Shown one piece after another: positions 2 to 15,264 of a stretch of DNA of 64,000 bases; the stretch's first letter is position 1, and each line of letters begins with the position of its first letter. Source of the DNA: Candidatus Gastranaerophilales bacterium (GTDB lineage Bacteria > Cyanobacteriota > Vampirovibrionia > Gastranaerophilales > Gastranaerophilaceae); NCBI GenBank assembly GCA_944324405.1, contig CALUWF010000001.1:337286-401285 (forward strand), given 5' to 3'. The notes beneath the pieces are model-generated. The model did not search any database. It worked only from the letters and a program-made list of their open reading frames with translations, and was not told the DNA's origin. A program made the position numbers and the translations under genes.

Positions 2-934
2 GGAGCTTTTCGTGACAGAATAATACACCACCTTATATACAATGCCATAAAAGACAGGTTTGACAAGGTTTTTATAGATGATGTATTTAGCTGCATTCCA
101 AAACGCGGAACGCTAAAAGGTGCGCAAAAAGCCGCTTTTTATGCTAAAAAGCTCACAAAAAATTACACTCAAAAAGCTTATTTTATGAAAGCCGACATCT
201 CAAACTTTTTCAACAGTATAGATAAAGAAATTCTCTTTGATGAAGTTCGCAAATATGTCTATGAGCCTTGGCTTGTGCGGCTCATTGAAAAAGTCCTCTT
301 TCACAACCCCAGAAACAACGTTTCTATGAAATCCCCAAAATGGCTCTTTGAGCAAGTTCCGGCCTACAAAAGTCTTTTTAACATTGATGCAAAAAAAGGT
401 TTGCCTATCGGCAATCTGACAAGCCAATTTTTTGCAAATGTTTATCTCAATCCGCTCGATCAATACGTAAAAAACGAACTAAAATGCAAATATTATTTAA
501 GATACGTTGATGACATACTTCTTTTACATCAAGACGCAGGCTGGCTCAATCAGGCGTATTCAAAGATAAACCGTTTTTTGCTTGATAATCTTGCTATGAG
601 CCTAAATCACAGAAAAAAGAATATGAACCTCATCTGCCGCGGATTTGACTTTGTAGGACACATGGTAAAACCAAACCGCATATTTTTAAGAACAACAATA
701 ATAAAAAAATCTTTTGAAACAATTAAAAAATGGGAAAAAAATCCAAACCGCTTTTGCCCGGAAGAATTGGAGATATTCAGAAACAAAATAAACAGCTACC
801 TTGGAATGTATAAGCATATAAACGGCTACAACCTGCGCAAAAAAATCTGCATGCGGGCAACCACCCTTTTTACTCATCCGGATGAAGACTTTTCAAAAAT
901 AATAATTACAAATTACAACGAAGAAAAAAAATAA
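2..934 (+). CDS. Reverse transcriptase, DGR type (5' end outside window)
   Basis: RNA-directed DNA polymerase. The frame is open from base 2, so the true start lies to the left. Visible in order: an N-terminal RDRIIHHLIYNAI block, motif A KADISNFF with the first catalytic Asp, motif B GLPIGNLTSQ, motif C YVDD, a GFDFVGH motif E, and a C-terminal SYLGMYKHINGYNLRK segment. The IGNxTSQ form of motif B, instead of the QGxxxSP of group II intron enzymes, and the C-terminal SYLG..KH..Y.LRK block are typical of DGR and related bacterial RTs. No maturase, HNH or X domain is seen. It converges on the variable prepilin gene and ends about 140 bp from it. An Avd partner or a classical template repeat could lie off the left edge. 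The RT assignment is secure. The DGR subclass is inferred from motifs only. Confidence 0.88.
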   Translation, partial: GAFRDRIIHHLIYNAIKDRFDKVFIDDVFSCIPKRGTLKGAQKAAFYAKKLTKNYTQKAYFMKADISNFFNSIDKEILFDEVRKYVYEPWLVRLIEKVLFHNPRNNVSMKSPKWLFEQVPAYKSLFNIDAKKGLPIGNLTSQFFANVYLNPLDQYVKNELKCKYYLRYVDDILLLHQDAGWLNQAYSKINRFLLDNLAMSLNHRKKNMNLICRGFDFVGHMVKPNRIFLRTTIIKKSFETIKKWEKNPNRFCPEELEIFRNKINSYLGMYKHINGYNLRKKICMRATTLFTHPDEDFSKIIITNYNEEKK

Positions 935-939
935 AAAAA

Positions 940-972
940 GAGGGCCAACATATTTATCCTGGAGTGACCCTC
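940..972 (-). terminator. Hairpin terminator-like element, minus direction
   Basis: GAGGG at 940-944 pairs with CCCTC at 968-972. Read on the minus strand, the stem is followed by a run of U. The loop contains CCTGGAGT (958-965). It probably backs up the stronger hairpin at 1002-1047. Confidence 0.45.
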
Positions 973-993
973 GAATTAAGATACGAAGTCTTT

Positions 994-1048
994 AAAAAAA
1001 AGGGTGCCTTCTGAAAACGTACCTGGAGTTGTATCTTCAAGGCACCCC
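994..1048 (-). terminator. Rho-independent terminator of the variable prepilin
   Basis: A 9-bp stem, GGGTGCCTT (1002-1010) with AAGGCACCC (1039-1047), is followed on the minus strand by eight U (1001-994). It lies 25 bp past the stop codon at 1074. Its loop contains CCTGGAGT (1022-1029), an octamer also found in the loop of the neighbouring hairpin and at the 3' edge of the array remnant. Confidence 0.7.
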
Positions 1049-1073
1049 AAAATGGTTAATTTACATGAAATCT

Positions 1074-2396
1074 TTAATCGTCATATTTTATCCAATTTAA
1101 ATACACATAGCCGTTTTGGCCGGCAGAACCGCCGCCGGGGTTCGGATAGTTTGTAGTATCCTCGCTCCAGCCGCCTCCGCCGCCGCCTGCGCCTGCGGCA
1201 CCGTATTGAGCCGAGTCATAAACATTATTTGGCGCAACAAATACAACGGTTGAGCCGTTTACGTTTGTATTTGTGCAAACGGTGCTGTCAATAAAAAGAC
1301 CGCCGCAGGAACCTTTTGTGCCAAGTCCGCTGTCACCTCCGACGCCGCCCGAGGAGCCGCCAAAGCCGTTTGTGCTTGTAAATGTCTTGCCGTCTTTTCC
1401 GGATGAACCGGCTTTTGAATCCAAATTGCTTGTATCCGTTGCGCTTGTGTAAACTCCGCCGCCTGCACCGCCTTTGCCTTGTACTGCATCAGAGCTTGAA
1501 GTTGCAGAAGTTCCCGCACTTCCTTTAGTTCCGCCCTTTAAGGTGTATGTGAGCGAATCAAAAGTTATTGAGGTTGCGCCGCCGTCAGCACCGTTTGAAC
1601 CGACTCCGCCCGCTGCGCCTCCGCCGCCCACTCTGATTGTATATTCTACACCGGCGCTTACGGGGATATCTTTTATTATTGCAAAGGCTCCGCCGCCTCC
1701 GCCTCCTCCGCCCGCTGCGGGATAAACTATATCATATTGGATTTCGGCAATGCCGTTTGCGCCTCTGCCGCCTTTACCTTTGTATACGTTTGAGGTTGAG
1801 CCGGAGATTTGAAATCTTACTGTTCCGCCTCCGCCACCTGCGCCATAGCGCGAACCGTCCATTCCGTTTTCACTGTTGCTGTCGCCGCCTGAGCCGCCGC
1901 CCGTGAATGAAGAGTAGTTATATGCGCTTCCGCCGCCTGCGCCGCCTGTGGCCGAGGTATTGCCTTCTTTTTCATAGTTGCCGTTCACACCGTTTGGGCC
2001 ATAGCTTGAACAATCTCTGTTTACCCATGATGTTCCGTTGTATTCTCTGCAAGTATTTTGAGCTTTTTTGCCTCCGCCGTCACCATAATCCGATGAAGTC
2101 GCTCCTTTTCCGCCCAAGCCGCCGGGTACTTCAATACCCCATTTTAATTTTCCGCTTGCATCATTCACTTTGATTGATGAAGCGGCGCCGTTTGAACCGT
2201 CACCTGCTGCCGCGCCCGAGCTGCCTCCGGCGCTTCCGCCCGCGCCTCCGGCAGCTCCATAGAGTATAATCTCTCCTCCGATGTTTGATTCAATTACATT
2301 TTTTGGTATTTCGAGATTTTTTATGTAAGGAGCGCCGCCGCCTCCGCCGCCGGCGAAAGTGTTAAAGCGTAGAGCCAATTTCTCCAGGACACAGCG
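1074..2396 (-). CDS. Glycine-rich tail of the variable prepilin, out of frame in this sequence
   Basis: This reading frame continues the prepilin if one base is added between 2397 and 2396, where most cassettes read CGGTTCGCTG but this locus reads CGGTCGCTG. It encodes RCVLEKLALRF followed by about 430 residues of glycine-rich, low-complexity sequence with blocks such as AGGGGGGGG, separated by short beta-prone stretches (for example IIKDIPVSAGVEYTIRV), ending GYVYLNWIKYDD. There is no start codon or ribosome site of its own near the junction. The complete in-frame protein would be 823 residues. A paralogue at 62421 has the same layout with the junction in frame, which suggests the long form is the ancestral functional product. 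An assembly or base-calling error is the main alternative. Confidence 0.7.
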   Translation of the reverse strand, partial: RCVLEKLALRFNTFAGGGGGGAPYIKNLEIPKNVIESNIGGEIILYGAAGGAGGSAGGSSGAAAGDGSNGAASSIKVNDASGKLKWGIEVPGGLGGKGATSSDYGDGGGKKAQNTCREYNGTSWVNRDCSSYGPNGVNGNYEKEGNTSATGGAGGGSAYNYSSFTGGGSGGDSNSENGMDGSRYGAGGGGGTVRFQISGSTSNVYKGKGGRGANGIAEIQYDIVYPAAGGGGGGGGAFAIIKDIPVSAGVEYTIRVGGGGAAGGVGSNGADGGATSITFDSLTYTLKGGTKGSAGTSATSSSDAVQGKGGAGGGVYTSATDTSNLDSKAGSSGKDGKTFTSTNGFGGSSGGVGGDSGLGTKGSCGGLFIDSTVCTNTNVNGSTVVFVAPNNVYDSAQYGAAGAGGGGGGWSEDTTNYPNPGGGSAGQNGYVYLNWIKYDD

Positions 2397-3544
2397 ACCG
2401 AAAAGGCACGAGTAAGCTCTGTAGCGCTGGCTAATATTAATTTGCTTCCTTCCATGGAATAAATTGCAACTCTGCCCTCGGTAGTGGTATTCGTGTAATA
2501 CGCATGAGCGCAACAACTTTTACCGGTAGCGTCACGACATAAGTTAACCCCGCAATGGCACCTTGGCGACCCCAAAGCGGAGGAGTTGCAGTCACAAAGT
2601 TGTAAACCGTCTGAGCCTAAATACTTCGATAATTTTGCATTATTAACACTGGACTCCGCGTTAATGACTGCTTGCCATCCTGTCATTTCCGCGTTAGTCG
2701 GTAATCTCCAGTCACCTGCGTTTGTACCTTCCGGGTTCCACTGTGCACATGAATCACGTGCGGCTGTCCATTGACATACCGTCCTTGTACATCCGCTGTA
2801 ATTACTGCTGTGCGTACCCCATGTTCCGCTGTTTGTACAATTTGAGGAAGTCGTGCCCGACCAACAGCAGTTTGTGGAACTTGAAGGACAAGTTCCCGAG
2901 CCTGCCGTGAGTTTTGTAACTGTTGATGCCATTGTAGGGCCGTTTGGATCACCTACGTTGTATTTTGTAACGCAAGTATTTTTTCCGCCCGAGCCGTTCA
3001 TTGATGCGGGGATAAACATCGCATTATATTTGTTGCAGTCAGCCTGAGATTGCGGGGCGCCCTGCTGTTGGGTGTAGGCACCGCCTCCGCCGCCTCCGCC
3101 GCCTCCGGCGAGATAGCTTATTGTAACATTTTTCATATTTTTGGTTATTTTAATTGTCTTTGTTTGCGAACTTCCTATTGATGAGTTTGCAGCATAGCTT
3201 TTTTGATCGAGCGATACGGTGGGAGTTGTCGCGCCCGCTCCTCCTCCGCCGCCTGATACCATTACAGCGCTTATTGAACTTACTCTGTTTGGAACAGTGA
3301 ATTTACAATCAACCGCATTGGGGTCATCTGCCGCAGCCGAGCAGTCTGTAGCGAATTTGTCATACAAGAAAAGCTGACCTTCTGTCTTGTAACTAATATT
3401 TGCACGTTCTTTTACTCTTTTTGTCAGAACAGGTGCAAAGAGTGTCAATATTATTGATATAATAAGAATTGCGACCAAAAGTTCAGCCAGAGTAAATGCG
3501 TTTTTCTTCAAACGCCAAAAGCCTGTTTTCATCATAAAATTCAC
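2321..3544 (-). CDS. Type IV prepilin with exchangeable C-type-lectin-like (FISUMP-like) domain
   Basis: Expression locus of the cassette system, 407 residues as it stands. It starts with GTG at 3544, with GAGG about 8 nt upstream; ATG codons at 3535 and 3532 are alternatives. Residues 1-16 are a prepilin leader cleaved before FTLAELLVA, followed by the hydrophobic N-terminal helix of type IV pilins. Next come two glycine-rich stretches, a Cys-rich segment (NCCWSG..), and a fixed half-domain with GDWRLPTNAEM, typical of Fib_succ_major/FISUMP domains. The variable half runs from LCDCNSSALGS to the 3' edge. Bases 2403-2589 are identical to array cassette 28. After the edge the frame shifts (FSVAVSW..) and stops at 2321, so the glycine-rich tail is lost. 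The product is probably a surface filament or minor pilin subunit presenting a ligand-binding domain. Pilin class is clear. The FISUMP call rests on motif resemblance. Confidence 0.82.
   Translation of the reverse strand: MNFMMKTGFWRLKKNAFTLAELLVAILIISIILTLFAPVLTKRVKERANISYKTEGQLFLYDKFATDCSAAADDPNAVDCKFTVPNRVSSISAVMVSGGGGGAGATTPTVSLDQKSYAANSSIGSSQTKTIKITKNMKNVTISYLAGGGGGGGGGAYTQQQGAPQSQADCNKYNAMFIPASMNGSGGKNTCVTKYNVGDPNGPTMASTVTKLTAGSGTCPSSSTNCCWSGTTSSNCTNSGTWGTHSSNYSGCTRTVCQWTAARDSCAQWNPEGTNAGDWRLPTNAEMTGWQAVINAESSVNNAKLSKYLGSDGLQLCDCNSSALGSPRCHCGVNLCRDATGKSCCAHAYYTNTTTEGRVAIYSMEGSKLILASATELTRAFSVAVSWRNWLYALTLSPAAEAAALLT
2403..2589 (-). repeat. Exchanged tract: 187 bp identical to cassette 28
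   Basis: The reverse complement of this stretch equals 11200-11386 base for base. Immediately outside it the two loci differ. On the 5' side the gene has GACTGCAAC where cassette 28 has GACAGCAAC. On the 3' side the gene has GCCTTTTCGG where the cassette has GCCTTATCGG. The boundaries mark the minimum extent of the last transfer. The direction, array to gene or gene to array, cannot be read from one sequence. Confidence 0.9.
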
Positions 3545-3793
3545 CGATTATTCCTCAAAAGCTACTCTTATAACATTAAAAAATTATTGATATATAACCT
3601 ACAATATAACATATTTGTTTTTAATTTCAACCATGAATTATAATTATAAAAATAATTGTAACATTTGATGGAAAAAGTACTTAAAATATGTTAAAATCGG
3701 TCATTGATAGTTAATTTTGCACGTTGACAATTGAATATTAAATTCACTGATTTATATTAAATATATCGGAATTTCCGATATTGATTAAACACT
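3545..3793. promoter_or_regulatory. Divergent control region between prepilin gene and cassette array
   Basis: About 250 bp of very AT-rich sequence without a gene. On the minus strand a TATAA-like box (GTTATAAGAG) lies about 30 bp before the prepilin start. On the plus strand TTGACA (3724-3729) is followed by TATATT (3753-3758), but the 23-bp spacing is poor, so a plus-strand promoter is only possible. A perfect inverted repeat lies at 3763-3781. Confidence 0.4.
3763..3781. promoter_or_regulatory. Perfect 9-bp palindrome, candidate operator
   Basis: ATATCGGAA (3763-3771), one central T, then TTCCGATAT (3773-3781). It sits directly upstream of structured element A and downstream of the plus-strand TTGACA. 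Shape and position suit a dimeric repressor site controlling array transcription. No cognate regulator is identified. Confidence 0.45.
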
Positions 3794-3878
3794 CCTTAGA
3801 GCGGTATGTTTCACGGAACATGCCGGAGAAGGTATTAAACTCGTTTTAAGGTAGCGGCAGAATGATACGCCGCTTAAG
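3794..3878 (+). ncRNA. Structured RNA element A at the array head
   Basis: First of three copies (with 10370 and 12591). P1: CCTTA (3794-3798) with TAAGG (3847-3851). P2: 9 bp, CGGTATGTT (3802-3810) with AACATGCCG (3817-3825), closed by the hexaloop TCACGG. P3: AGCGGC (3853-3858) with GCCGCT (3869-3874). The joiner reads GAG..AGG....TAAACTCGTT and TTAAG follows. Stem bases differ between copies while pairing is kept, so it is probably selected as RNA. I do not recognise it as a known riboswitch. Confidence 0.65.
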
Positions 3879-3916
3879 CTGTATACGGTTAACACATCGG
3901 ACGTGCTTTATGAAAA

Positions 3917-3944
3917 GCGGCTTCATTTTATATTATGAAGCCGC
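3917..3944 (+). other. Ten-bp hairpin upstream of cassette 1
   Basis: GCGGCTTCAT (3917-3926) pairs perfectly with ATGAAGCCGC (3935-3944) over an 8-nt AT loop. No U-run follows, so it is not a standard terminator. It lies between element A and the first cassette and has no equivalent before elements B or C. Confidence 0.5.
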
Positions 3945-3996
3945 AAAGTACGGCCGAGTGGCTTTTGGCTTTTAGCATACTGAAAACCTTAAATAA

Positions 3997-4208
3997 ACTT
4001 TGTGACTGGTGCGACTTCGCTTATGGGTCGGTTCTTTGTTTTTATTCGATGGACAGCTGCCCGGGCGCACGGTTTGATTCAAAGTCAGATAATGCTTGCT
4101 ATCCTTATGACTTATGGGCAGGCTCTGACACCATGTTTCAGCTTTGCAGCGGTAATGCTTTCACCAGAGTCGCTACACCTGATTATGCCATTTCGGCGCG
4201 CTGTGTCC
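3997..4208 (+). repeat. Cassette 1
   Basis: Open from LCDWCDFAYGS to ARCV. It is the only cassette with GAC TTC in place of the conserved TCC TCC. Three-base 3' edge allele (CGC between CGG and GCTG), followed in frame by RYLIK. Confidence 0.8.
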
Positions 4209-4254
4209 GGTATTTAATAAAAATGTGTTTATTGTATAGAGTAAACTTTAAAAA

Positions 4255-4472
4255 ACTTTGTGACAACAACTCCTCCGATTTGGGGTCGATAATGTGCTTA
4301 ATGGGTTATCCGTTATGCCTCGGTACACCCAATAATAACAAATGCGGACCGCAAGACTATTTGACAGGAAATTTACATGGCACTAATGTTTGGTATTATA
4401 CACTTTCCAGGGGTAAATTTGCTCAACATAATACTTTGTCAATGAAAGAAGCCTTTTCGGCGCGCTGTGTCC
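4255..4472 (+). repeat. Cassette 2
   Basis: Open from LCDNNSSDLGS to ARCV. Three-base edge allele CGC, shared only with cassette 1. The spacer after it is almost identical to the one after cassette 1. Confidence 0.8.
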
Positions 4473-4519
4473 GGTATTTAATAAAAATGTGTTTATTGTA
4501 TAGAGTAAACTTTAAAAAA

Positions 4520-4734
4520 ACTTTGTGACCACGGCTCCTCCTCTAAGGGGTCGCTAAAGTGTTTTTGCGGGTCTTCTTCTTCCTGCAAAGGCAGTTATGA
4601 CGACAAATGTCATACTCATAACTATTGGTCGGGCAGTGCTACAGGAGAGAAATATTACGCCGCCAATTTGGATTCGGGCTCTTGGGTACGCTCGCCAAAT
4701 CCCTCCGGATATCCCTTTTCGGCTCGCTGTGTCC
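4520..4734 (+). repeat. Cassette 3
   Basis: Open from LCDHGSSSKGS to ARCV; core CFCGSSSSCKGS, then CHTHNYWSGS. Edge allele CTC. Confidence 0.8.
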
Positions 4735-4782
4735 GGTATTTAATAAAAAATGTGTTTACTTATACAATAAAACCTTAAAAAA

Positions 4783-5006
4783 ACTTTGTGACTGGTACTC
4801 CTCCGCTTATGGGTCGGTATACTGTTCTTGGAATATAAGGTGTCCCGGGGCGCTAAGCGATTTAAGCACATCGGGAGATTGCAATATTCATGGGCATTGG
4901 TCACAGACGGCTTCAGGCGGCAGCTATTATGATTTAGGGCTTGGCGAGGGGCGTGCGCAATTGTATTTGAAAAAGCCGGGCTATGCCTTTTCGGTTCGCT
5001 GTGTCC
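4783..5006 (+). repeat. Cassette 4
   Basis: Open from LCDWYSSAYGS to VRCV; core IRCPGALSD then GHWSQTASGG. Close relative of cassette 13. Edge allele TTC. Confidence 0.8.
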
Positions 5007-5053
5007 GGTATTTAATGAATTTGTGTTTATTTATACAATAAAACCTTAAAATA

Positions 5054-5268
5054 ACTTTGTGAGCGCGGCTCCCCCGCTTGGGGGTCTGTGTATTGCGGAA
5101 GTACCCCTACCCCCGGGTGTTATGGCGCCCTTAATACGAACTGCGATCCCGCCTTTATATGGAGCTCGACTATGTCCGGCAACGGTTATCGCTATTTGTG
5201 GCTGCATAACAACGTTTGTTATATCGATACAGTTTCGGCCAATGACTCCTTTTCGGCCCGCTGTGTCC
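5054..5268 (+). repeat. Cassette 5
   Basis: Open from LCERGSPAWGS to ARCV. The 5' edge has GAG for GAC and TCCCCC for TCCTCC. Shares the ending SANDSFSARCV with cassette 6. Edge allele CCC. Confidence 0.8.
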
Positions 5269-5315
5269 GGTATTTAATGAATTTGTGTTTACTTATACAA
5301 TAAAACCTTAAAAGA

Positions 5316-5524
5316 ACTTTGTGACCGTTACTCCTCCTCTTTGGGGTCGCTGCATTGCCAACCGTCCGGCGGGTGCTTGGGCGCGGTTAATCCAAGCTGT
5401 GATGCGGCGTTTATTTGGAACTCGAGTATGGATGGCAGCAATTATCACTATATGAGACTGGATAACGGCGTTATTTATCACTCTGCACATTCGGCCAATG
5501 ACTCCTTTTCGGCTCGCTGTGTCC
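5316..5524 (+). repeat. Cassette 6
   Basis: Open from LCDRYSSSLGS to ARCV; core GGCLGAVNPSC then AAFIWNSS. Edge allele CTC. Confidence 0.8.
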
Positions 5525-5571
5525 GGTATTTAATTAATTTGTGTTTAGTTATGCAATAAAACCTTAAAAGA

Positions 5572-5776
5572 ACTTTGTGACTACTCCTCCGCTTATGGGT
5601 CGATTTGGTGTCAAAGTTCAGGACTTTGCAGGGGCGCATCAGATGGCTGCTGTTACAGTAACACCTATTGGACTCTGACAGTACAGGGCACAAACCACTG
5701 GGAGTTCCATCTTATTTTCGGTGAAATAGGAGACAATAAATGGGACGCTCGTTATGCCTTTTCGGTCGCTGTGTCC
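5572..5776 (+). repeat. Cassette 7 (two-base edge)
   Basis: Open from LCDYSSAYGS, with one variable codon fewer than other cassettes. The 3' edge is the two-base allele TC, as in the expressed gene, so it reads FSVAVSGA and stops. Confidence 0.8.
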
Positions 5777-5822
5777 GGGGCTTAAAAAAACGTGTTTATA
5801 GTATATGGTAAACTTTAAAATA

Positions 5823-6049
5823 ACTTTGTGACTGGTACTCCTCCGCTTATGGGTCGATTTGGTGCTATAGCAAAGAGTACACTTGTCTTGGCGCGCAGTC
5901 TGATACGGGTTATACCGGCTCTTGCCACCCGCTTGATGTATGGTCAGAGTGTACGGGCGCAAACACCTGTTTGTTTTTTCAGCTTGGTAGCGGCAAATTT
6001 GTAATCAACTCGCGTAATATGCGTTATGCCTTTTCGGTTCGCTGTGTCC
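5823..6049 (+). repeat. Cassette 8
   Basis: Open from LCDWYSSAYGS to VRCVL then TAG. Core resembles cassettes 18 and 23 (CLGAQ.D.GY, then CLFFQLG). Edge allele TTC. Confidence 0.8.
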
Positions 6050-6099
6050 TGTAGCTTAATAAAAAAAATGTGTTTATTGTGTATAAAAGCCTTAAAATA

Positions 6100-6329
6100 A
6101 CTTTGTGACCTCAACTCCTCCTCTTTGGGGTCGCTTATGTGCTTAAGTACAGCGAATTTGTGCTATGGAGCAGTTGCTGACCCGAGTTTTGCCCATGGCT
6201 GTTACTCTTTTGCCATTTGGTCAAGCACCCCTTCAAGCAGCGGCCGTTATTATGACCTGTGTGTTTGGAACGGCAGGGGGCAAATTTTAGAGCGTCCTGC
6301 GGGCTATGCCTATTCGGTTCGCTGTGTCC
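6100..6329 (+). repeat. Cassette 9
   Basis: Open from LCDLNSSSLGS to VRCV; core CYGAVADPSF. Edge allele TTC. Confidence 0.8.
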
Positions 6330-6377
6330 GGTATTTAATAAAAAATGTGTTTACTTATACAATAAAACCTTAAAAAG

Positions 6378-6604
6378 ACTTTGTAACGGCTACTCCTCCG
6401 CCTTGGGGTCGATATTTTGCTTTGACGGGGTGAGTCTTTGTCGCGGCAGCGGCTCGGACGGCGTTACTGTCGACAATTGTGCTGTTCATGATGTGTGGTC
6501 AGGCACCGCTGGTGGCGGCGGGTATTATTTTTTGTTTAACTATCATGTTCTAACCGCACAAAACTCATATCCCGCAAATTTTGCCTTTTCGGCCCGCTGT
6601 GTCC
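6378..6604 (+). repeat. Cassette 10
   Basis: Open from LCNGYSSALGS to ARCV; the 5' edge reads GTAAC for GTGAC. Edge allele CCC. Confidence 0.8.
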
Positions 6605-6652
6605 GGAGGTTAAGAGAAAATGTGTTTATAGTAGGCAGTAAGCTTTAAATTG

Positions 6653-6879
6653 ACTTTGTGACAGTCACTCCTCCGCTAATGGGTTGATATACTGTTGGGA
6701 TGGGCCGTACCGTTGTCTTGGCAGCTGGGGGAAAAATGGCGAGCAGCATCGCTGCTATGTTCATAATATTTGGTCAAGTACACCCGGGGGCTATGGCTAT
6801 TATGTTTTGTTCAATTACGCAGGTTCATCGGCGGATGTAACATCTGACCCTGTGTGTGCCTTGTCGGCTCGCTGTGTCC
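6653..6879 (+). repeat. Cassette 11
   Basis: Open from LCDSHSSANGL to ARCVL then TAG; core CLGSWGKNGEQ, then CYVHNIWSS. Edge allele CTC. Confidence 0.8.
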
Positions 6880-6926
6880 TGTAGCTTAATGAAATTGTGT
6901 TTATTATGTATAAAAACCTTAAAAAG

Positions 6927-7138
6927 ACTTTGTGACGGCGGCTCCTCCGCTATGGGGTTGTGCAGATGTTATATGGCTACTACTTGCCTTGGGGCGTATA
7001 GTTCAGCTTGCCAGACTGACAACCTTTGGGCGATAACCCAGGGCAGCACAGGATATTATTATCTTACGTTGAATTACGGCGAAGTAAACGTTAGATCAGT
7101 TAACCTGCCATATGCCGCCTTTTCGGCTCGCTGTGTCC
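6927..7138 (+). repeat. Cassette 12
   Basis: Open from LCDGGSSAMGL to ARCV; core TCLGAYSSACQTDNLW. Close relative of cassette 16. Edge allele CTC. Confidence 0.8.
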
Positions 7139-7183
7139 GGTATTTGATGAAATTGTGTTTATTGTGTATAAAAACCTTAAAAA

Positions 7184-7407
7184 ACTTTGTGACTGGATCT
7201 CCTCCTCTTTGGGGTCGATATACTGTCCTATTGATACAAGGTGTCCCGGGGCGCTGAGCGATTCAGGTACATCGGGAGATTGTTATAGGCATGCGCATTG
7301 GTCACAAACAGCTTCAGGTAATGGCTATTATGATTTAGGGCTTGGCGATGGGCATGCGCAATTGTATTTGAGAAAGCCGGGCTATGCCTTTTCGGTTCGC
7401 TGTGTCC
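7184..7407 (+). repeat. Cassette 13
   Basis: Open from LCDWISSSLGS to VRCV. Close relative of cassette 4, with scattered silent and replacement changes. Edge allele TTC. Confidence 0.8.
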
Positions 7408-7455
7408 GGAGGTTAAGAGAAATTGTGTTTATAGTAGGCAGTAAGCTTTAAAATA

Positions 7456-7688
7456 ACTTTGTGACACGCACTCCTCCTCTTTGGGGTCGCTACAGTGTTA
7501 CAACCACGGTACCAATTGCCCCGGGGCGCTTAGTGACGGTGGCGTTGTCGGACGCTGCCATCCTCACGATTTATGGTCAGGCTCAGTGTCAGGTGCTACT
7601 CACTACTTTTTTCTTATGGGCAATGGCAAACTGGTTGGGAAAAACCCTTATTGTACGCCTCGTTATGCCTTTTCGGTTCGCTGTGTCC
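7456..7688 (+). repeat. Cassette 14
   Basis: Open from LCDTHSSSLGS to VRCVP then TAG; core CPGALSDGGVVGRCHPHD. Edge allele TTC. Confidence 0.8.
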
Positions 7689-7736
7689 CGTAGCTTAATA
7701 AAATTGTGTTTATAGTATATGGTAAGCTTTAAATTA

Positions 7737-7954
7737 ACTTTGTGACCAAGACTCCTCGGCTTCGGGGTCGATAAGATGTTATTGCGGTTCTAAATACGGC
7801 TGTAACGGGAGTATTGACGGCGGGCGTGCCCATGCCCATCATTTCTGGTCGGGCACTCCTGTAGGAGGGCACTATTATGCAGGCCAGATGAGTTCCGCTT
7901 CTCTCACGGTGCCAAACCTAAATCCGAGATACGCCTTTTCGGCTCGCTGTGTCC
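7737..7954 (+). repeat. Cassette 15
   Basis: Open from LCDQDSSASGS to ARCV; core CNGSIDGGRAHAHHFWSGT. Edge allele CTC. Confidence 0.8.
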
Positions 7955-8001
7955 GGTATTTGATAAAATTGTGTTTATTTATACAATAAAACCTTAAAAT
8001 A

Positions 8002-8213
8002 ACTTTGTGACGGCAGCTCCTCCGCTTCGGGGCTGTGCAAATGTTACAATGCCACTACTTGCCTTGGGGCGTATAGTTCAGCTTGCCAGACTGACAACCT
8101 TTGGGCAATAACTCAGGGCAGCACAGGATATTATTATCTTACGCTGGTTTATGGCAAAGCATCCGTTAAATCGGTTAATCTGCCGCATGCGGCCTATTCG
8201 GTTCGCTGTGTCC
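8002..8213 (+). repeat. Cassette 16
   Basis: Open from LCDGSSSASGL to VRCVP then TAG. Near-duplicate of cassette 12 that diverges toward the 3' part. Edge allele TTC. Confidence 0.8.
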
Positions 8214-8259
8214 CGTAGCTTAATAAAATGTGTTTATAATATGCAGAAAACTTTAAAAA

Positions 8260-8471
8260 ACTTTGTGACTACAGCTCCTCCTCTAAGGGGTCGCTTTGCT
8301 GCAATGGCGGGTTGTATTGTCTTGGAGGGATTAATCTTCAATGCGACCCGAATGAAATTTGGTCAAGTGTACTCAAACAAAGTGACCGCTATTATGCCCT
8401 TAGGATAGCAGGCGGCAACGTAAGCTTTCCAGACCGAGGAATGAGGGACACCTTGTCGGTTCGCTGTGTCC
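8260..8471 (+). repeat. Cassette 17
   Basis: Open from LCDYSSSSKGS to VRCVL then TAG; core CLGGINLQCDPNEIWSS. Edge allele TTC. Confidence 0.8.
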
Positions 8472-8518
8472 TGTAGCTTAATAAAATGTGTTTATTGTAT
8501 AGAGTAAGCTTTAAAATA

Positions 8519-8745
8519 ACTTTGTGACCACAGCTCCTCCGCCTTGGGGTCGATAAGCTGCTATCATAAAACGCTTACCTGCCTTGGTGCACAATATGAC
8601 CCGGGGTATACTTATGCCTGCTATCCGCTTGACATATGGGCACAGTGCACAAGTTCAAACGCCTGTTTGTTTTTTCAATTGGGTTTTGGGAAGCTTTTAT
8701 TAAGTTCGCGGACGCCGGGATATGCCTTTTCGGTTCGCTGTGTCC
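8519..8745 (+). repeat. Cassette 18 (twin of 23)
   Basis: Open from LCDHSSSALGS to VRCV. Differs from cassette 23 at one base in 227 (CACAGC against CACGGC). The spacers downstream of the two differ. Edge allele TTC. Confidence 0.85.
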
Positions 8746-8793
8746 GGAGGTTAAGAGAAATTGTGTTTATCTTATAAAGCAAACCCTAAATAA

Positions 8794-9005
8794 ACTTTGT
8801 GACATCAACTCCTCCGCTGCGGGGTCGCTTAGGTGCGATATACGCGTTAGTTCCTGTATTGGCTCAATGGAAAATTCATGCCGAAGTTTTGATGTCTGGA
8901 CAGGAAATGCATACGGCAGCACATATTACTATTATCATTTACAATACGGCGGATTAACAAGAGGTGTGCGTGAGCCGATTGACGCCTTTTCGGCTCGCTG
9001 TGTCC
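8794..9005 (+). repeat. Cassette 19
   Basis: Open from LCDINSSAAGS to ARCVP then TAG; core CIGSMENSCRSFDVWTG. Edge allele CTC. Confidence 0.8.
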
Positions 9006-9053
9006 CGTAGCTTAATGAAATTTGTGTTTAAGTATATGGTAAGCTTTAAAATA

Positions 9054-9265
9054 ACTTTGTGACTGGGACTCCTCCGCTTCGGGGTCGGTTGTATGCTCCT
9101 TTCACCTTACGGCTTGCAAAGGCGCTTATGGCGGGTATTGCCATGCGCATGGCATATATTCCCTTAATGGTGATGGCAGCAGCGCGTATGTGTTTGCATT
9201 AGATAACGGCAAGTGCGGTGTAAACTTTCACACAGTTAAGCGCGCCTATTCGGCTCGCTGTGTCC
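9054..9265 (+). repeat. Cassette 20
   Basis: Open from LCDWDSSASGS to ARCV; core CKGAYGGYCHAHGIYS. Edge allele CTC. Confidence 0.8.
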
Positions 9266-9312
9266 GGTATTTAGTAAAAATGTGTTTATTGTGTATAAAA
9301 AACTTTAAAATA

Positions 9313-9524
9313 ACTTTGTGACCGCGACTCCTCCTCTAAGGGGTCAATTAGATGTTACAGCGGCCCGGATTGCCTTGGCGGCGAGAATGAGCACTGTGAC
9401 CCTTTCGGTTATTGGTCAGGCAGTGCCCAATCAAGCAACGTCTATTACTATCTTCGATTTATTGACGGAGAGGTCGGGTTTAGGTCTATAACCGCAAGGG
9501 AAACCTTTTCGGCTCGCTGTGTCC
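9313..9524 (+). repeat. Cassette 21
   Basis: Open from LCDRDSSSKGS to ARCV; core CLGGENEHCDPFGYWSGS. Edge allele CTC. Confidence 0.8.
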
Positions 9525-9571
9525 GGTATTTAGTAAAAATGTGTTTATAATATGCAGAAAACTTTAAAAGT

Positions 9572-9780
9572 ACTTTGTGACAGCGACACCTCCGTTATGG
9601 GGTCGATTATGTGCAATTGGGGCCCTTCGCGCTGTAATGGAGGCCATGGGAACGTTTGCTACCCGCAAAACTATTGGACAGGCACAAATTCAGGGAGTTA
9701 TGCCTGCCTGTTTGACGAAGGGGGGCTTCGCTGTGCAAATACATACTTGCTAACGCATTGCTTTTCGGTTCGCTGTGTCC
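9572..9780 (+). repeat. Cassette 22
   Basis: Open from LCDSDTSVMGS to VRCV; core CNGGHGNVCYPQNYWTGT. Edge allele TTC. Confidence 0.8.
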
Positions 9781-9828
9781 GGTATTTAATTAAAAATGTG
9801 TTTATAGTATATGGTAAGCCTTAAAATA

Positions 9829-10055
9829 ACTTTGTGACCACGGCTCCTCCGCCTTGGGGTCGATAAGCTGCTATCATAAAACGCTTACCTGCCTTGGTGC
9901 ACAATATGACCCGGGGTATACTTATGCCTGCTATCCGCTTGACATATGGGCACAGTGCACAAGTTCAAACGCCTGTTTGTTTTTTCAATTGGGTTTTGGG
10001 AAGCTTTTATTAAGTTCGCGGACGCCGGGATATGCCTTTTCGGTTCGCTGTGTCC
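9829..10055 (+). repeat. Cassette 23 (twin of 18)
   Basis: Open from LCDHGSSALGS to VRCVL then TAG. 226 of 227 bases match cassette 18, which shows recent intra-array duplication or conversion. Edge allele TTC. Confidence 0.85.
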
Positions 10056-10103
10056 TGTAGCTTAATGAAATTGTGTTTATAATATGCAGAAAACTTTAAA
10101 AGA

Positions 10104-10321
10104 ACTTTGTGACCACGGCTCCTCCGCTTTGGGGCAGCCAAGATGTTACAGGCACAGTTCCGCATGTCCGGGAGCTATGAGCGATTGGACTAATGCACCT
10201 GTTTGCAATCCGCATGACGTATGGACAGGCCCTGCCGCATATTATTTTAGTATGGTTAACGGAAAATACGGCGGCCCGGTGCAAGCGCATGGGAGATATG
10301 CCTTTTCGGCTCGCTGTGTCC
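10104..10321 (+). repeat. Cassette 24
   Basis: Open from LCDHGSSALGQ to ARCV; core CPGAMSDWTNAPVCNPHDVW. Edge allele CTC. Last cassette of the first module. Confidence 0.8.
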
Positions 10322-10369
10322 GGTATTTAATTAAAAATGTGTTTAGTTTACAATAATATTTAAAACACA

Positions 10370-10453
10370 CCTCAGAGCGGATTGTATCAAGGTATAATCC
10401 GGAGCAGGAAAATAAACTCGTTTAAGATAGCGGCAGAAGATATACCGCTTAAG
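10370..10453 (+). ncRNA. Structured RNA element B inside the array
   Basis: Second copy. P2: CGGATTGTA (10378-10386) with TATAATCCG (10393-10401), hexaloop TCAAGG. P3: AGCGG (10429-10433) with CCGCT (10445-10449). The joiner GAGCAGG....TAAACTCGTT and the trailing TTAAG match the other copies. The P1 5' side CCTCA is present but its partner has decayed here. Cassette 25, which carries expression-site edges, starts 30 bp downstream. Confidence 0.65.
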
Positions 10454-10482
10454 TTAATAAAATCTTAAAAAAACTTTGTGAC

Positions 10483-10589
10483 TGCAACTCCTCCGCTTAG
10501 GGGTCGCTTATACGTTATGTAGTAAGCGCCGCTATCCCCTGACGTTGGCAACCGCTGCCAGCCGGTGTGCCTTTTCGGTCGCTGTGTCC
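10483..10589 (+). repeat. Cassette 25, truncated, with expression-site edges
   Basis: Only 107 bp, with an early TAG (LCDCNSSA then stop). Its 5' edge, ACTTTGTGACTGCAACTCC and on through GCTT, and its 3' edge, CGGTCGCTGTGTCCTGG, match the prepilin gene exactly. No other cassette has TGC AAC at the variable codons. Most of the core is replaced by a short GC-rich stretch with a GGCA/TGCC hairpin. It may be a deletion product, or an acceptor-like guide sequence linked to element B. Confidence 0.75.
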
Positions 10590-10644
10590 TGGTGTTTATT
10601 TTATGTGTTTTTCTATACAGTAAAGCCCTAATAAAATTGTAAGG

Positions 10645-10862
10645 ACTTTGTGACGCATACTCCTCCGCTTTGGGGTCGCCAAGGTGCCTCTACATTCAAA
10701 GCTGCTCAGGCGCACCGAATGCCTATTGCTACCCTTACGCCCATTGGACTTCTGCCCCTTGGAATACGCCCACTACACATTATTGGGACAAGCTAATGTT
10801 AAACGGCGGACTTGCTAACGACTCACAGCCCCTTACGGTGCCCTTGTCGGTTCGCTGTGTCC
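10645..10862 (+). repeat. Cassette 26
   Basis: Open from LCDAYSSALGS to VRCVL then TAG; core CSGAPNAYCYPYAHWTSA. Edge allele TTC. Confidence 0.8.
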
Positions 10863-10910
10863 TGTAGCTTAATAAAAATGTGTTTAATTATACGGTAAAC
10901 TCTTAAATAA

Positions 10911-11142
10911 ACTTTGTGACCTCTACTCCTCCGCTTTGGGATCTGCGCAGTGTTTTCTTGGCGTAGATATGTGCAAAGGTGCCCTTAGCGACGGCGGACG
11001 GCCGTATGTGTGTTACCCTCATCACCTGTGGACATGCACTTCGGCAAACGGAGGGTTTGCATGGGGAGCCTTAGACACGGGGCTATTCTTGCCTACCGCT
11101 ACAGCCTATCAGACAGGCTTTGCCTTTTCGGTCGCTGTGTCC
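10911..11142 (+). repeat. Cassette 27 (two-base edge)
   Basis: Open from LCDLYSSALGS; the 5' edge has GGATCT for GGGTCG. Two-base 3' edge allele TC, so it reads FSVAVSGI and stops. Confidence 0.8.
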
Positions 11143-11187
11143 GGTATTTAATAAAAATTGTGTTTTTATACAGTGAAGCTTTAAATT

Positions 11188-11403
11188 GACTTTGTGACAG
11201 CAACTCCTCCGCTTTGGGGTCGCCAAGGTGCCATTGCGGGGTTAACTTATGTCGTGACGCTACCGGTAAAAGTTGTTGCGCTCATGCGTATTACACGAAT
11301 ACCACTACCGAGGGCAGAGTTGCAATTTATTCCATGGAAGGAAGCAAATTAATATTAGCCAGCGCTACAGAGCTTACTCGTGCCTTATCGGTTCGCTGTG
11401 TCC
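11188..11403 (+). repeat. Cassette 28: donor or copy of the expressed variant
   Basis: Open from LCDSNSSALGS to VRCV. Bases 11200-11386 are identical to the expressed prepilin gene (2589 to 2403). Core CHCGVNLCRDATGKSCCAHA. It is also a relative of the next cassette. Edge allele TTC. Confidence 0.92.
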
Positions 11404-11449
11404 GGTATTTAATAAAAATTGTGTTTTTATACAGTGAAGCTTTAAATTG

Positions 11450-11664
11450 ACTTTGTGACGCATACTCCTCCGCTTCGGGGTCATCAAGGTGCTATTGCGG
11501 ATTTAATTTATGCCACGGTGCTATCCCAAACAGTTGTTGCGCCCATGCGTATTACACAGGCACTTTGACAGGTAATAGTGTTAAGCTTTATACCTTACAG
11601 GAGAGCCGGTTGTTATTAGCCAACGCTACAGAGCTAACTCTTGCCATTTCGGTTCGCTGTGTCC
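11450..11664 (+). repeat. Cassette 29
   Basis: Open from LCDAYSSASGS to VRCV; core CYCGFNLCHGAIPNSCCAHA. Diverged relative of cassette 28; differences affect all four bases, not only A. Edge allele TTC. Confidence 0.8.
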
Positions 11665-11713
11665 GGTATTTAATAAAAATTGTGTTTATTTTATACGGTG
11701 AAGCTTTAAAATA

Positions 11714-11946
11714 ACTTTGTGACGCCTACTCCTCCGCTTTGGGGTCGGTTCAGTGCTGGCCTTATGAGGGCAATTGCCCGGGCGCTGTTGACACTGACGG
11801 TTATACCGGACGCTGTCACCCGCATGACACGTGGACAGGCACCTATGAGTCAAATAAACGCTATTTTGTCATATTGCAAGACGGTACTTTATCTCTTGTA
11901 GGGCCGCGCTATGATAGTCGTTACGCCTTTTCGGCCCGCTGTGTCC
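11714..11946 (+). repeat. Cassette 30
   Basis: Open from LCDAYSSALGS to ARCVL then TAG; core CPGAVDTDGYTGRCHPHDTW. Edge allele CCC. Confidence 0.8.
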
Positions 11947-11992
11947 TGTAGCTTAATGAAATGTGTTTATCTATACGGTGAAGCCATAAAAT

Positions 11993-12207
11993 ACTTTGTG
12001 ACTACGACTCCTCCGCCAAGGGGTCGATGATATGTTATTGCGGGAAGGCTTCTACATGCAGAGGCACCCCCGACGGGCTTTCTCATGCCCATCATATCTG
12101 GTCAAGCAGCTCCACGGGAGGAAACTATTATACGGGTAATTTAAATTATTCTTCCATGACGGTAAGGGGTTTTGGCCCCAAATACGCCTATTCGGTTCGC
12201 TGTGTCC
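11993..12207 (+). repeat. Cassette 31
   Basis: Open from LCDYDSSAKGS to VRCVL then TAG; core CRGTPDGLSHAHHIWSSS. Edge allele TTC. Confidence 0.8.
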
Positions 12208-12253
12208 TGTAGCTTAATAAAATGTGTTTATCTATACGGTGAAGCCATAAAAT

Positions 12254-12483
12254 ACTTTGTGACATGTCCTCCTCCGCCTTGGGGTCGCCAAGGTGTCTGA
12301 ATATTCGTGTCTGTTACGGCTCTGTCGGTGATTACGGTTCCGCTGACCCTTGCCACCCTCATGATGTATGGTCAGGCACTTATTCAGGTAATATGCGCAC
12401 ATTTTTTAACCTGGCAGGGGGCAGTTGGATTCGCGCCATCGACAGTGCTACAGTGCGTTATGCCTTTTCGGCCCGCTGTGTCC
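12254..12483 (+). repeat. Cassette 32
   Basis: Open from LCDMSSSALGS to ARCV; core CYGSVGDYGSADPCHPHDVW. Edge allele CCC. Last full cassette. Confidence 0.8.
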
Positions 12484-12590
12484 GGGATTTAATAAAATGT
12501 GTTTTTTCTGTGAGATTTTAACGGCTATACAAAGGCTAAAACAACATCTTGATAATTTAGAAAAAAAACGTTAAACTTAAGTTTGGATAT

Positions 12591-12674
12591 CCTCAGAGTG
12601 CGAGAATTTACGGATTTTTGCAGAGCAGGATAACTAAACTCGTTATGAGGTAGCCTGAATAATACGGCTTAAAA
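12591..12674 (+). ncRNA. Structured RNA element C at the array tail
   Basis: Third copy. P1: CCTCA (12591-12595) with TGAGG (12646-12650), which covaries with CCTTA/TAAGG in element A. P2: TGCGAGAAT (12599-12607) with ATTTTTGCA (12614-12622), hexaloop TTACGG. P3: AGCC (12652-12655) with GGCT (12666-12669). The joiner GAGCAGG....TAAACTCGTT is retained. It is followed by a 3' cassette edge and a terminator. Confidence 0.65.
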
Positions 12675-12698
12675 AATATTTGTTCAACCCTCATAGGT

Positions 12699-12732
12699 AT
12701 GCTGCCGCCTTTTCGGTCGCTGTGTCCTGGAG
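12699..12732 (+). repeat. 3' cassette remnant with expression-site edge
   Basis: Only the end of a cassette. From 12707 to 12732 its 26 bases equal the 3' edge of the prepilin gene, including the two-base allele and the following CCTGGAG. Full cassettes continue CCGG, CCTGTAG or CCCGTAG instead. Confidence 0.8.
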
Positions 12733-12743
12733 TTTGGAAGTTT

Positions 12744-12768
12744 AAGACCTCTTTTTGAGGTCTTTTTT
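12744..12768 (+). terminator. Rho-independent terminator closing the array
   Basis: AAGACCTC (12744-12751) and GAGGTCTT (12757-12764) over a five-T loop, with a run of six T from 12763. It would end a plus-strand array or element C transcript. Confidence 0.85.
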
Positions 12769-12837
12769 AATATCAAGGCAATTTTTTCTCACAGATATAC
12801 TTTATATATATAAACCCCATTATTTTTAAGAGAGAAA

Positions 12838-15264
12838 ATGAACATAGAGCCGCTTTATATAACAAATAATATTTACAGCACAAAAGAGTCCGCCGCAACA
12901 TCAAATGTCAGCGCACAAGACCCCATTTACGCACAAAATATCGTGCAAGAAGGCGACAGTGTAAACTTTAGCAAAAACTACAAAACACGGGAGAGCAATT
13001 CTTTAAGGGAAAGTTTTGAAGAAACAAAAGAAGAACAGGGACTAATCGGAAAAGCATGGGACGGTATTAAAAATCTCTTTAATTTTAAAACAGGCTCAGA
13101 TTATGTTGAAGAAACGCTTGAAAAATATGAAAACGGCGAAATAACACAGCAAGAAGCTCAGTCGGTACTTGAAAAGTATCAAAAAGGACAGGAAATGTCC
13201 TCGGATGTTGTTTCCGATGTCACTTCAGGCATAATAGCGGTTGGCGCCGCAGCACTTGCACCCGTAACAGGCGGGGCGTCTTTACTTGTAGCAGCCGGCG
13301 CGGGCGCACTTTCAAAAACTGCAATCAAAGCAGTTGACGCTCTTGCGGGCGGAAGGGAATATGATATAAAAGATTTAGGATACGACCTTATTACAGGCTC
13401 AATCAACGGCGCAATGGCTCCCGTTTCAAACGCCCTTGGCGGCGTTGCGGGCACTGCCGTTGCAAAGACTCTGGGACTTGAATCCGTAGAGGCTGCGGCA
13501 AAATCGGCAGGGGGAGGAATAATCGCCAATTTACTGGCAAAAGGAGGGGCAAGTTACGTCGCAAAACAGGGAGCCCAAACAAGCGCAAAGACTGTTTTGT
13601 CAAGGGCTCTTTCCTACGGTGCCGATATGGCGGTCGACGGAGCTTTATCAGGTGCCGCAGACGGTTTTTCACGTGCTTTGGGAGAGGGAAGAATTGAAGA
13701 TATTAAAGATGACACCCTAAACGGCGCCTTAGGCGGACTTGTAGCTTCACCGTTAATCGGCGGGGCAATGAGATTGAGCTTTGGCGGTGCAACATCGCTT
13801 AGCGCAAAATTATTCACCGAAGCCAAAGACACACTTTCAGACACCCTTGCAGACGGCGCGCAAAACACTGTTTCAAGGGAAATAAGCCAAGCTGATAAGA
13901 TAGTTTTCACTACATTTGATGAAGCAATTGACTATTTAAACAACTCTGCAAACAAAAACGCTAAAACGGTCTTGGATGCCTATAAAAAAGCGCTTGAAAA
14001 AGGTAAAAACATATCACTTGAACAGCTTGGGGATGCAATTAATTTAATTGATAACCCGAAATACGAAGAACAAATCAGAAAATATGCGGCAGATTTAGCA
14101 AAACAATACGAAGATGAAAGCTCTATATACAATACCATAGATGAAATGTTTGAAATTTTGGGCATAAATCCGCAAATAGTATATGACGCATCACATAACA
14201 GCTACATGGCGCAAAGCGGCTACGGCTCAATAAGCGTACGCGCCAAAGGCGAAGAGTCGGTGCTTTCAAAAATAAGAAATAAAGTTTTGGAATTTAAAGA
14301 CACCTTCCCGCAAAATGAATATCAGGCTTCTTCATTAATCGGAGATGCACACGGCGTAAGGATTATTGCCGGAGTGTCAACACTTAGCGAAGATGACATC
14401 GCACAAATTATAAAAAATTCGATAAAAAATCAAGATGACACGGATTTGTTTGTAAAACACATTTTAACGGGAGAAGGTGAAATTCCCGCGCAAAAACTTG
14501 CAGAGTTTGAAGCCGTTCAAAAAGAAGTCGTTGAAAGGGCAAGAGAACTGCAAAGCGGCAAACTTGTGGAAAATTTGACTCAGGCAATTGAAGATGACAG
14601 GATAAACGTAACAGAGCTGCACAACTACTCAAGCAAAGACGGCATAACATACTTTAGCGATGTACAGGTTGATAAACTTAAGGACTCATATAAAAAATGG
14701 TATGAAAAAATGCTTGAAATAGCGCAAAACAGCCCCGAAACGTCAAATTATACAATTGTTGAAAAGAATAACTTAATTTGTCTGAAAGATAAAAACGGCT
14801 ACATTTTTAAACCCAGTATGCTTATAGAAACCGTTTCCGAAGGCGAAAAAGCAATTAAAAAGTCCGGCTACACGGCAGCACAGATGAACATAATTACAAA
14901 AGACGGCGTACAGGAAGAATTCCAATATAGAGGTGTTCTGGCGGATGAATTTTCGGAACTTGAACATCTGCACTACGACATAAAATCAAAAAAAGACACC
15001 GTCTTGGGTGCGCAATATAACGATATAAGAAATGTTTACAATAAATACAATACAGAGAAATTTGAAAATGCATACAATGCTTATTTAAGCGACACATTTA
15101 AAGCGTACAGAAAACGCGAACTCGGGCTTGCCGCAGAATTGCCGGATATAGAAAATTATCTGGGCGATATGTTGAGCGAAGATGAAATGCGCATAATTTC
15201 ACGCGAAGGACTTAAAGAACTTTACGATTTAACTCATTCGTTAGACAAAAACGCCGCAGCCTGA
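12838..15264 (+). CDS. RelA/SpoT-domain protein with glycine-rich hydrophobic N-terminal half
   Basis: 808 residues. The N-terminal 120 residues are polar. Residues about 125-300 are Ala/Gly-rich with several hydrophobic helices (SGIIAVGAAALAPVTGGAS and similar), as in membrane-inserting or translocated proteins. The C-terminal part carries RelA/SpoT nucleotidyltransferase signatures: RAKGEESVLSK (RxKxxxSxxxK, near 470), LIGDAHGVRII (near 503), SGYTAAQMNI (near 677), EEFQYRG (near 695) and ELEHLHYD (near 707). Such domains make (p)ppGpp or, in some toxins, pyrophosphorylate adenosine nucleotides or tRNA CCA ends. No hydrolase (HD) domain is visible. A small gene follows 17 bp downstream and could be its antitoxin or chaperone. 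The start has AGAGAG upstream. The domain call is my reading of motifs. Toxin activity is inference. Confidence 0.68.
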   Translation: MNIEPLYITNNIYSTKESAATSNVSAQDPIYAQNIVQEGDSVNFSKNYKTRESNSLRESFEETKEEQGLIGKAWDGIKNLFNFKTGSDYVEETLEKYENGEITQQEAQSVLEKYQKGQEMSSDVVSDVTSGIIAVGAAALAPVTGGASLLVAAGAGALSKTAIKAVDALAGGREYDIKDLGYDLITGSINGAMAPVSNALGGVAGTAVAKTLGLESVEAAAKSAGGGIIANLLAKGGASYVAKQGAQTSAKTVLSRALSYGADMAVDGALSGAADGFSRALGEGRIEDIKDDTLNGALGGLVASPLIGGAMRLSFGGATSLSAKLFTEAKDTLSDTLADGAQNTVSREISQADKIVFTTFDEAIDYLNNSANKNAKTVLDAYKKALEKGKNISLEQLGDAINLIDNPKYEEQIRKYAADLAKQYEDESSIYNTIDEMFEILGINPQIVYDASHNSYMAQSGYGSISVRAKGEESVLSKIRNKVLEFKDTFPQNEYQASSLIGDAHGVRIIAGVSTLSEDDIAQIIKNSIKNQDDTDLFVKHILTGEGEIPAQKLAEFEAVQKEVVERARELQSGKLVENLTQAIEDDRINVTELHNYSSKDGITYFSDVQVDKLKDSYKKWYEKMLEIAQNSPETSNYTIVEKNNLICLKDKNGYIFKPSMLIETVSEGEKAIKKSGYTAAQMNIITKDGVQEEFQYRGVLADEFSELEHLHYDIKSKKDTVLGAQYNDIRNVYNKYNTEKFENAYNAYLSDTFKAYRKRELGLAAELPDIENYLGDMLSEDEMRIISREGLKELYDLTHSLDKNAAA

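Follow-up and report, generated by a model that had tools for sequence, protein, structure and literature searches.

A bank of pilin core cassettes in the template slot of a diversity-generating retroelement of a Gastranaerophilales bacterium

The DNA analyzed here is a stretch of 64,000 nucleotides (nt), called the window, from the genome of a Candidatus Gastranaerophilales bacterium (assembly GCA_944324405.1, contig CALUWF010000001.1; G000, C1:337286-401285). It contains a reverse transcriptase (RT) gene, a pilin gene and an array of 32 cassettes, which are partial copies of the inside of the pilin gene. Judged by its sequence, the locus is a diversity-generating retroelement (DGR), and the array occupies its template slot. 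With somewhat better than even confidence, the array is read as a bank of 31 full-length cores, from which whole cores are likely copied into the pilin via array RNA and the RT. Gastranaerophilales is an order of the gut, and on this basis a gut habitat of the source bacterium is likely.

An array of coding cassettes beside a pilin gene

The features of the array and of the pilin gene are (window positions):

3998-10321, plus strand: cassettes 1-24, spacers mostly of 46-51 nt
10474-10589, plus strand: truncated cassette 25, retaining the 3' flank CCTGGTGTTTAT, which is like that of a template repeat (TR)
10646-12483, plus strand: cassettes 26-32; cassette 28 at 11190-11403
12707-12732, plus strand: terminal edge, identical to the 3' core edge of the pilin
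12744-12764, plus strand: terminator-like hairpin at the array end, weak if taken alone (16 such sites versus 11.3 ± 3.6 in shuffles)
1074-3544, minus strand: pilin gene in two frames; N_methyl and Gly_rich_2 above the cut-off, Lcl_C below the cut-off
2321-3544, minus strand: pilin open reading frame with prepilin start and predicted lectin-like domain, 407 amino acids (aa)
1074-2516, minus strand: pilin open reading frame of the glycine-rich part, 480 aa
2387-2599, minus strand: variable core of the pilin; 2403-2589 identical to cassette 28
2382-2407, minus strand: 3' edge of the pilin core, 26 nt, equal to the array terminal edge

A search for the cassette edges revealed, at 3998-12727 of the plus strand, 32 units with the 5' edge CTTTGTGA (in one unit CTTTGTAA; the edge is also given as CTTTGTGA(C)) and 33 copies of the 3' edge CGCTGTGTCC. 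The units span 3998-12483 in the same direction, and 31 of the 32 are full length with 204-232 nt each, so that the original prediction of 31 intact cassettes and a truncated one, all in the plus direction, was borne out. The 33rd copy of the 3' edge (12707-12732) has no cassette ahead of it and bears the pilin type of 3' end. On the minus strand, the search yielded a single copy of each edge, both inside the pilin (2599 and 2396). In the whole genome (48 contigs with 1.80 Mb, completeness 99.56), the pattern CGGN{0,2}CGCTGTGTCC is present 33 times in the array, always on the plus strand, once in the pilin and at zero other sites, and a reversed control of the 3' edge pattern had 0 occurrences.

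All 31 full-length cassettes are stop-free in the cassette frame, and a base-shuffled cassette is stop-free in only about 5% of shuffles. The length is 1 mod 3 for 29 of the 31; the exceptions, c7 and c27, each lack one base in the 3' edge. The truncated cassette c25 has 116 nt and contains stops, and it is possibly, as its retained flank suggests, the decayed original template. The cassettes differ considerably from one another, and in half of all pairs the identity is 55-59%. The cores of c18 and c23 are 100% alike, and the spacers around them differ (82% and 72% alike). The adjacent cassettes c28 and c29 have the same upstream spacer and cores that are 71% alike. For these pairwise comparisons of cores and spacers, as well as for the adenine bias discussed below, c25 was omitted and c7 and c27 were trimmed.

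The cassettes evolve like coding sequence. Over 378 pairs, the ratio of amino-acid-changing to silent differences (pN/pS) was 0.75 in frame versus 1.02 and 1.07 when the frame was shifted, and among the 36 pairs that agree in half or more of their residues it was 0.59 versus 1.08 and 1.17; the pairs were protein-aligned in the tested frame, which biases that frame low, and the value for all pairs is the fairer one. Both pN/pS and the alignment of 28 cassettes and the pilin (A1) omit c7, c23, c25 and c27. Cassettes of two genomes of a second genus, described below, gave 0.61 versus 0.92 and 1.14 (G079) and 0.59 versus 1.04 and 1.15 (G050). These ratios, as well as the asparagine figures of the two genomes, are based on 20 and 75 hits above 20 bits from 5 and 6 loci, respectively. 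Silent cassettes can feel a constraint of this kind only by way of transfer into a gene. The original prediction had further held that the units have no start signals of their own. This was not proved: promoter-like matches numbered 25 versus 16.4 ± 4.2 in shuffles (3500-12840), and chance frames beginning with ATG, GTG or TTG cross the cassettes.

The pilin carries a copy of one cassette

The pilin core equals cassette 28 across 187 nt (pilin 2589-2403, array 11200-11386). Outside this block three differences were found: two substitutions, both A to T, and the lack of one base. The flanks common to both beyond the block amount to 10 nt, the longest run being 11 nt, and such short flanks would suit homing better than RecA. 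Cassette 28 is probably the old resident and the pilin the recipient, because the neighboring c29 shares the upstream spacer of c28 and has a core that is 71% alike. The locus thus has two features of a silent-cassette system: a bank of partial copies of the inside of one expressed gene, and an expressed gene that carries a cassette copy. Among the matches listed in protein searches (best ~7990 candidates), no pilin of the same species with a different core was present. A second pilin core of G000 (C8:48163) was considered as a product of the array and rejected, since the closest cassette is only 57% alike.

The core is predicted to have a C-type-lectin-like fold, and thus the variable region of the target would lie in a C-type-lectin-like domain, as in DGRs. 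The fold was taken from a structure model of the domain only; an earlier model with a mean predicted local distance difference test value (pLDDT) of 45 was set aside. Foldseek alone gave no match at E<=0.001. The C-terminal domain of Legionella Lcl, which is C-type-lectin-like, is counted among the closest known systems. The label "FISUMP-type", which had been proposed for the pilin, found no support: PF09603 has 0 matches in the genome and is absent from the Pfam hits of the pilin.

The array lies in the template slot of a retroelement

The proposal of a silent cassette bank beside a matching prepilin gene stood the test of the 187 nt shared with c28, of the coding constraint and of the arrays in a second genus, but had missed that the locus itself is a DGR. 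It had referred to DGRs only as systems that otherwise target this fold, which is an understatement, as Avd and RT genes lie just upstream and the array is in the DGR template slot. Both the RT gene that opens the window (1-934) and the split of the pilin by a one-base deficit had gone unmentioned. The features concerned are:

L001:15385-15765: Avd gene, 126 aa, directly before the RT; bAvd PF22296 45.8 bits, cut-off 40
1-934, plus strand: DGR-type RT, 390 aa, starting 239 nt left of the window (L001:15762-16934); RVT_1 4.7e-17
3793-3871, plus strand: RNA element E1, upstream type, 66.2 bits
10369-10446, plus strand: RNA element E2, upstream type by sequence, 68.5 bits
12590-12669, plus strand: RNA element E3, downstream type by sequence, 80.9 bits

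The bit values of the RNA elements refer to the covariance model R1 of the element. The RT is intact and retains the motifs YVDD and GLPIGNLTSQ, the latter of which we take to be a mark of DGR RTs. No other match to this RT was found in the genome. The NCBIfam model DivGenRetAVD scored 44.1 bits on Avd, below its cut-off of 80, and none of the NCBIfam RT models reached its cut-off on the RT. A flagellin gene (Flagellin_N and _C) is located directly upstream of the Avd gene (L001:14229-15092).

In three genomes of the same genus (G014, G004, G005) the corresponding slot, next to the start of the pilin gene, contains a single ordinary template flanked on either side by a copy of a structured RNA element, i.e., the order is element, TR, element, terminal edge, terminator. 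The same slot of G000 holds 32 cassettes and three element copies, in the order E1, cassettes 1-24, E2, c25, cassettes 26-32, E3, terminal edge, and it is also closed by the terminator-like hairpin. A similar hairpin is located after the slot of G014 and that of G005, and a tRNA-Gly(TCC) gene is found near it in all three relatives as well as in the window (16738-16810). The template and target thus have a common 3' edge, the 26 nt being identical in the pilin and the terminal edge. The asparagine content is 24% in the three templates, 8-9% in the relatives' pilins and 4.6% in the cassettes.

Nine element sequences have a common fold, and for 11 of its 21 pairs changes on both sides were seen in at least one sequence. 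Of 145 relatives, 7 have an R1 match, as do 9 of the 383 family genomes. In G000 the only three matches are E1-E3, which belong to alignment A3 and all lie in the array. Rfam gave 0 matches at E<=1 on window 1-13000. Of the 34 element matches, 23 were tabled; the other 11 are in the window (3) and in L027, L029, L077, L079 and L082 (8). A cassette or template follows on the same strand, 69-319 nt downstream, in 20 of the 23 cases, four of which have E values between 0.03 and 0.44. The exceptions are L136, which is 28 nt from a contig start, and L132 and L133, on whose stretches no cassette was found. Many of these loci were chosen by their element match, and the independent part consists of 11 loci of G050 and G079 chosen before the RNA model: six have an upstream element on the same strand, and in the remaining five the first cassette is within ~280 nt of a contig end. 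The elements of L132 (5997-6076) and L133 (3575-3653) are the two R1 matches of G003, a genome without a match to the RT or the cassette profile.

Relatives with mutagenesis and relatives with banks

The RT was matched in 22 of the 145 relatives and the cassette profile in 21 of the 145 relatives and 30 of the 383 family genomes (own genome included in each case). Several relatives show ordinary adenine mutagenesis. Changes between template and copy were at template adenines in 20/21 cases in G004, 14/14 in G014, 19/20 in G311 and 11/11 in G318; the values were 24/24 in G387 and 6/6 (over 87 nt) in G241, where the written copy, at a contig end, may belong to a pilin gene. The pair tested in G336, with 19 of 43 changes at A, did not fit adenine mutagenesis, and the dispersed pilins of G004 and G014 did not fit the templates tested. 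The pilin core of G004 ends in the terminal edge, with the same 3' junction as in G000, and its event is the one with 20/21 changes at A. The RT-adjacent pilin of G014 does not fit the local template (20/48 at A) but fits a second one, headed by an element, at a distance of about 193 kb (14/14 at A), and therefore a retroelement of this kind is not limited to a single template. Such solo second templates, each with an element at its head and remote from the RT, were found at L077:6972-7327 (G014:C1), the source of this G014 pilin core, and at L079:925-1278 (G004:C19).

The original prediction had suggested a search of the lineage for similar arrays, and cassette arrays headed by the same RNA element were indeed found in a second genus (G050, G079). 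Counting profile hits above 14 bits in the loci examined, G050 has 115 cassettes in 11 loci and G079 has 31 in 11 loci, three of them with one copy. None of these loci has mixed strands, and only 2 of the 146 hits contain a stop. The RT-adjacent pilin core of G050, of which a part is on its contig, up to the contig end, has an exact match of 56 nt to a cassette that lies on a different contig. The cassette profile matched 13 times in G004 and 12 times in G014, two genomes that have a second template besides the one in the slot; most of these matches are in long open frames. In addition, G035 has at least 41 core matches, many in long frames, and G294 has several within one frame of ~900-1100 aa, an indication of multi-core pilins.

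A one-base deficit splits the pilin

The 26-nt edge of the pilin and the array terminus lacks one base relative to 29 of the 33 edges in the array, and this deficit at the 3' edge of the core splits the pilin into two frames. The RT-adjacent pilins of G004 (L029) and G009 (L031) have the same deficit, and that of G012 (L028) has it at a slightly shifted place, so that it was seen in four of five genomes of the genus, the pilin of G014 being in frame. The pilins of G050 and G079 are in frame up to the contig ends. The shorter form of the terminal edge is present in G000, G004, G005 and G014. A lasting loss ought to have led to decay, yet the downstream glycine-rich frame is still open in G000, G004, G009 and G012. 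Because of this, we suspect that the split pilin is an off state that can be reversed, or else a short form.

How cores may reach the pilin

In the mechanism that we favor, the array would be transcribed as template RNA, Avd and RT would recognize the RNA elements and copy one cassette, and the complementary DNA (cDNA) would replace the pilin core between the edges, with the terminal edge providing the 3' end. Stored, proven cores would mostly be used in place of random variants. We infer the transcription and template use of the cassettes, the direction from array to pilin, and a cDNA route rather than recombination; the RT route is preferred because the RNA fold has been kept and the RT is intact, and because of the slot, the short shared flanks and the same 3' junction in G004. 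Several results weigh against it. None of the 46 adenines in the 187-nt block copied from c28 is changed, i.e., the changes at template adenines that mark a DGR were not found between pilin and cassette. At the relatives' rates per adenine (14/52 and 20/60) the chance of this is 5e-7 to 8e-9, and therefore either the RT copies faithfully or the event was recombination. The RT sequence, with its GLPIGNLTSQ, gives no sign of faithful copying. Only one installed core was seen, and it is one block from a single cassette. In G000 as well as in G050 and G079, similar cassettes differ without adenine bias; a recent DGR origin of the cassettes was rejected for this reason. Finally, the pilin is split at present. 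A bolder version, which we hold only tentatively, is that the retroelement has turned from a mutator into a cassette switcher, with template RNA that has become a library of dozens of proven surface-protein cores, faithful readout by the RT and the terminal edge as on/off switch; the latter is proposed because copies that end in this edge lose one base and split the pilin.

It is doubtful, although a serious option, that the cores of the bank are moved by gene conversion of the RecA type, as in Neisseria pilS/pilE, and that the DGR gave only the place and the first copies. The unchanged 46 adenines would then need no further assumption, the common core of c18 and c23 within differing spacers is expected from conversion within the array, and the cassettes lack an adenine bias. 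However, the flanks shared with c28 are short, the 3' junction is the same as in the adenine-marked event of G004, and the RNA elements are kept with compensatory changes alongside an intact RT, neither of which recombination needs. RecA made no contribution when a BPP-1 DGR was reconstituted in E. coli (PMC12875486).

Very little credence is given to the reverse traffic, in which the array stores cores formerly used by the pilin as a record of past variants. The identity of pilin and c28 gives no direction by itself, and the asparagine content of the cassettes is nearer to that of the pilin cores than to that of the templates, but c28 has a diverged neighbor, c29, in a like unit, and the cassettes are old, since silent changes also separate them (codon-position counts). 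That the array is a decaying relic without function appears less credible still: the broken c25, c7 and c27 with one missing base and the split pilin would fit, but not the stop-free frames of all 31 full-length cassettes, a pN/pS below 1 only in the coding frame and the conserved elements. An assembly artifact can practically be dismissed. The genome is a draft of 48 contigs, and contigs of several relatives break at the core or near the RT; however, half of the cassette pairs, with their identity of 55-59%, are too different for repeat confusion (c18 and c23 could be confused), and such arrays also occur in separate genomes of a second genus. Integron cassettes were set aside, as the units occupy the DGR slot.

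Comparison with known systems

The type element of the DGRs is that of the Bordetella phage BPP-1, with a single adenine-rich template. The G000 locus is like DGRs in its RT, Avd, lectin-like target, adjoining template slot and common 3' edge, and its same-genus relatives show adenine-only changes as in DGRs. It differs in that 31 full-length diversified cassettes replace the one adenine-rich template and that the installed core is unmutated. Neisseria pilS/pilE, Borrelia vls and Anaplasma msp2 are silent-cassette systems that vary surface proteins. The array resembles them in that copies of only the variable segment of a surface gene, apparently promoterless, accompany a single expressed site in which one copy is installed. 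In contrast to them, the bank of G000 lies in a DGR template slot with RNA elements, the flanks are short, and the one installed core seen is a block from a single cassette rather than a mosaic. More than one template, as found here, also occurs in other DGRs: examples with 6 and 2 TRs are named (PMC6642488), and individuals with multiple TRs were found in T. denticola metagenomes (PMC4891356); the passages concerned mention no bank in which coding variants stand in tandem behind an RNA element. Literature searches, mostly without subscription papers and including the topics silent cassette, template array/pilin and Gastranaerophilales, turned up no description of a template bank in a DGR.

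Blind mutation is what DGRs are known for, and recombination is typical of silent-cassette systems. A DGR slot with a bank of constrained variants joins the two modes and makes the trade-off between exploration and memory open to study. If the bolder version is true, cassette switching by a retroelement would add a third way to programmed variation, an RNA-templated draw on inherited memory between DGR mutagenesis and RecA cassettes. Genomes with a single template, with two templates and with a bank are found side by side in one family, and the steps can be compared directly. The cassette profile and edges, together with the RNA model, permit searches for the system in long-read gut metagenomes.

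Neighboring sequences

Immediately beyond the array, a protein of 808 aa is encoded (12838-15264), which has no Pfam match at E<=0.01. A 93-nt unit is present in 2.4 tandem copies at 16525-16750, reaching the tRNA-Gly(TCC) gene, and a stretch similar to this unit follows the tRNA-Gly gene beside the slot in G014. Near the other end of the window, at 62659-62861, a 111-nt unit is present in 1.8 tandem copies.

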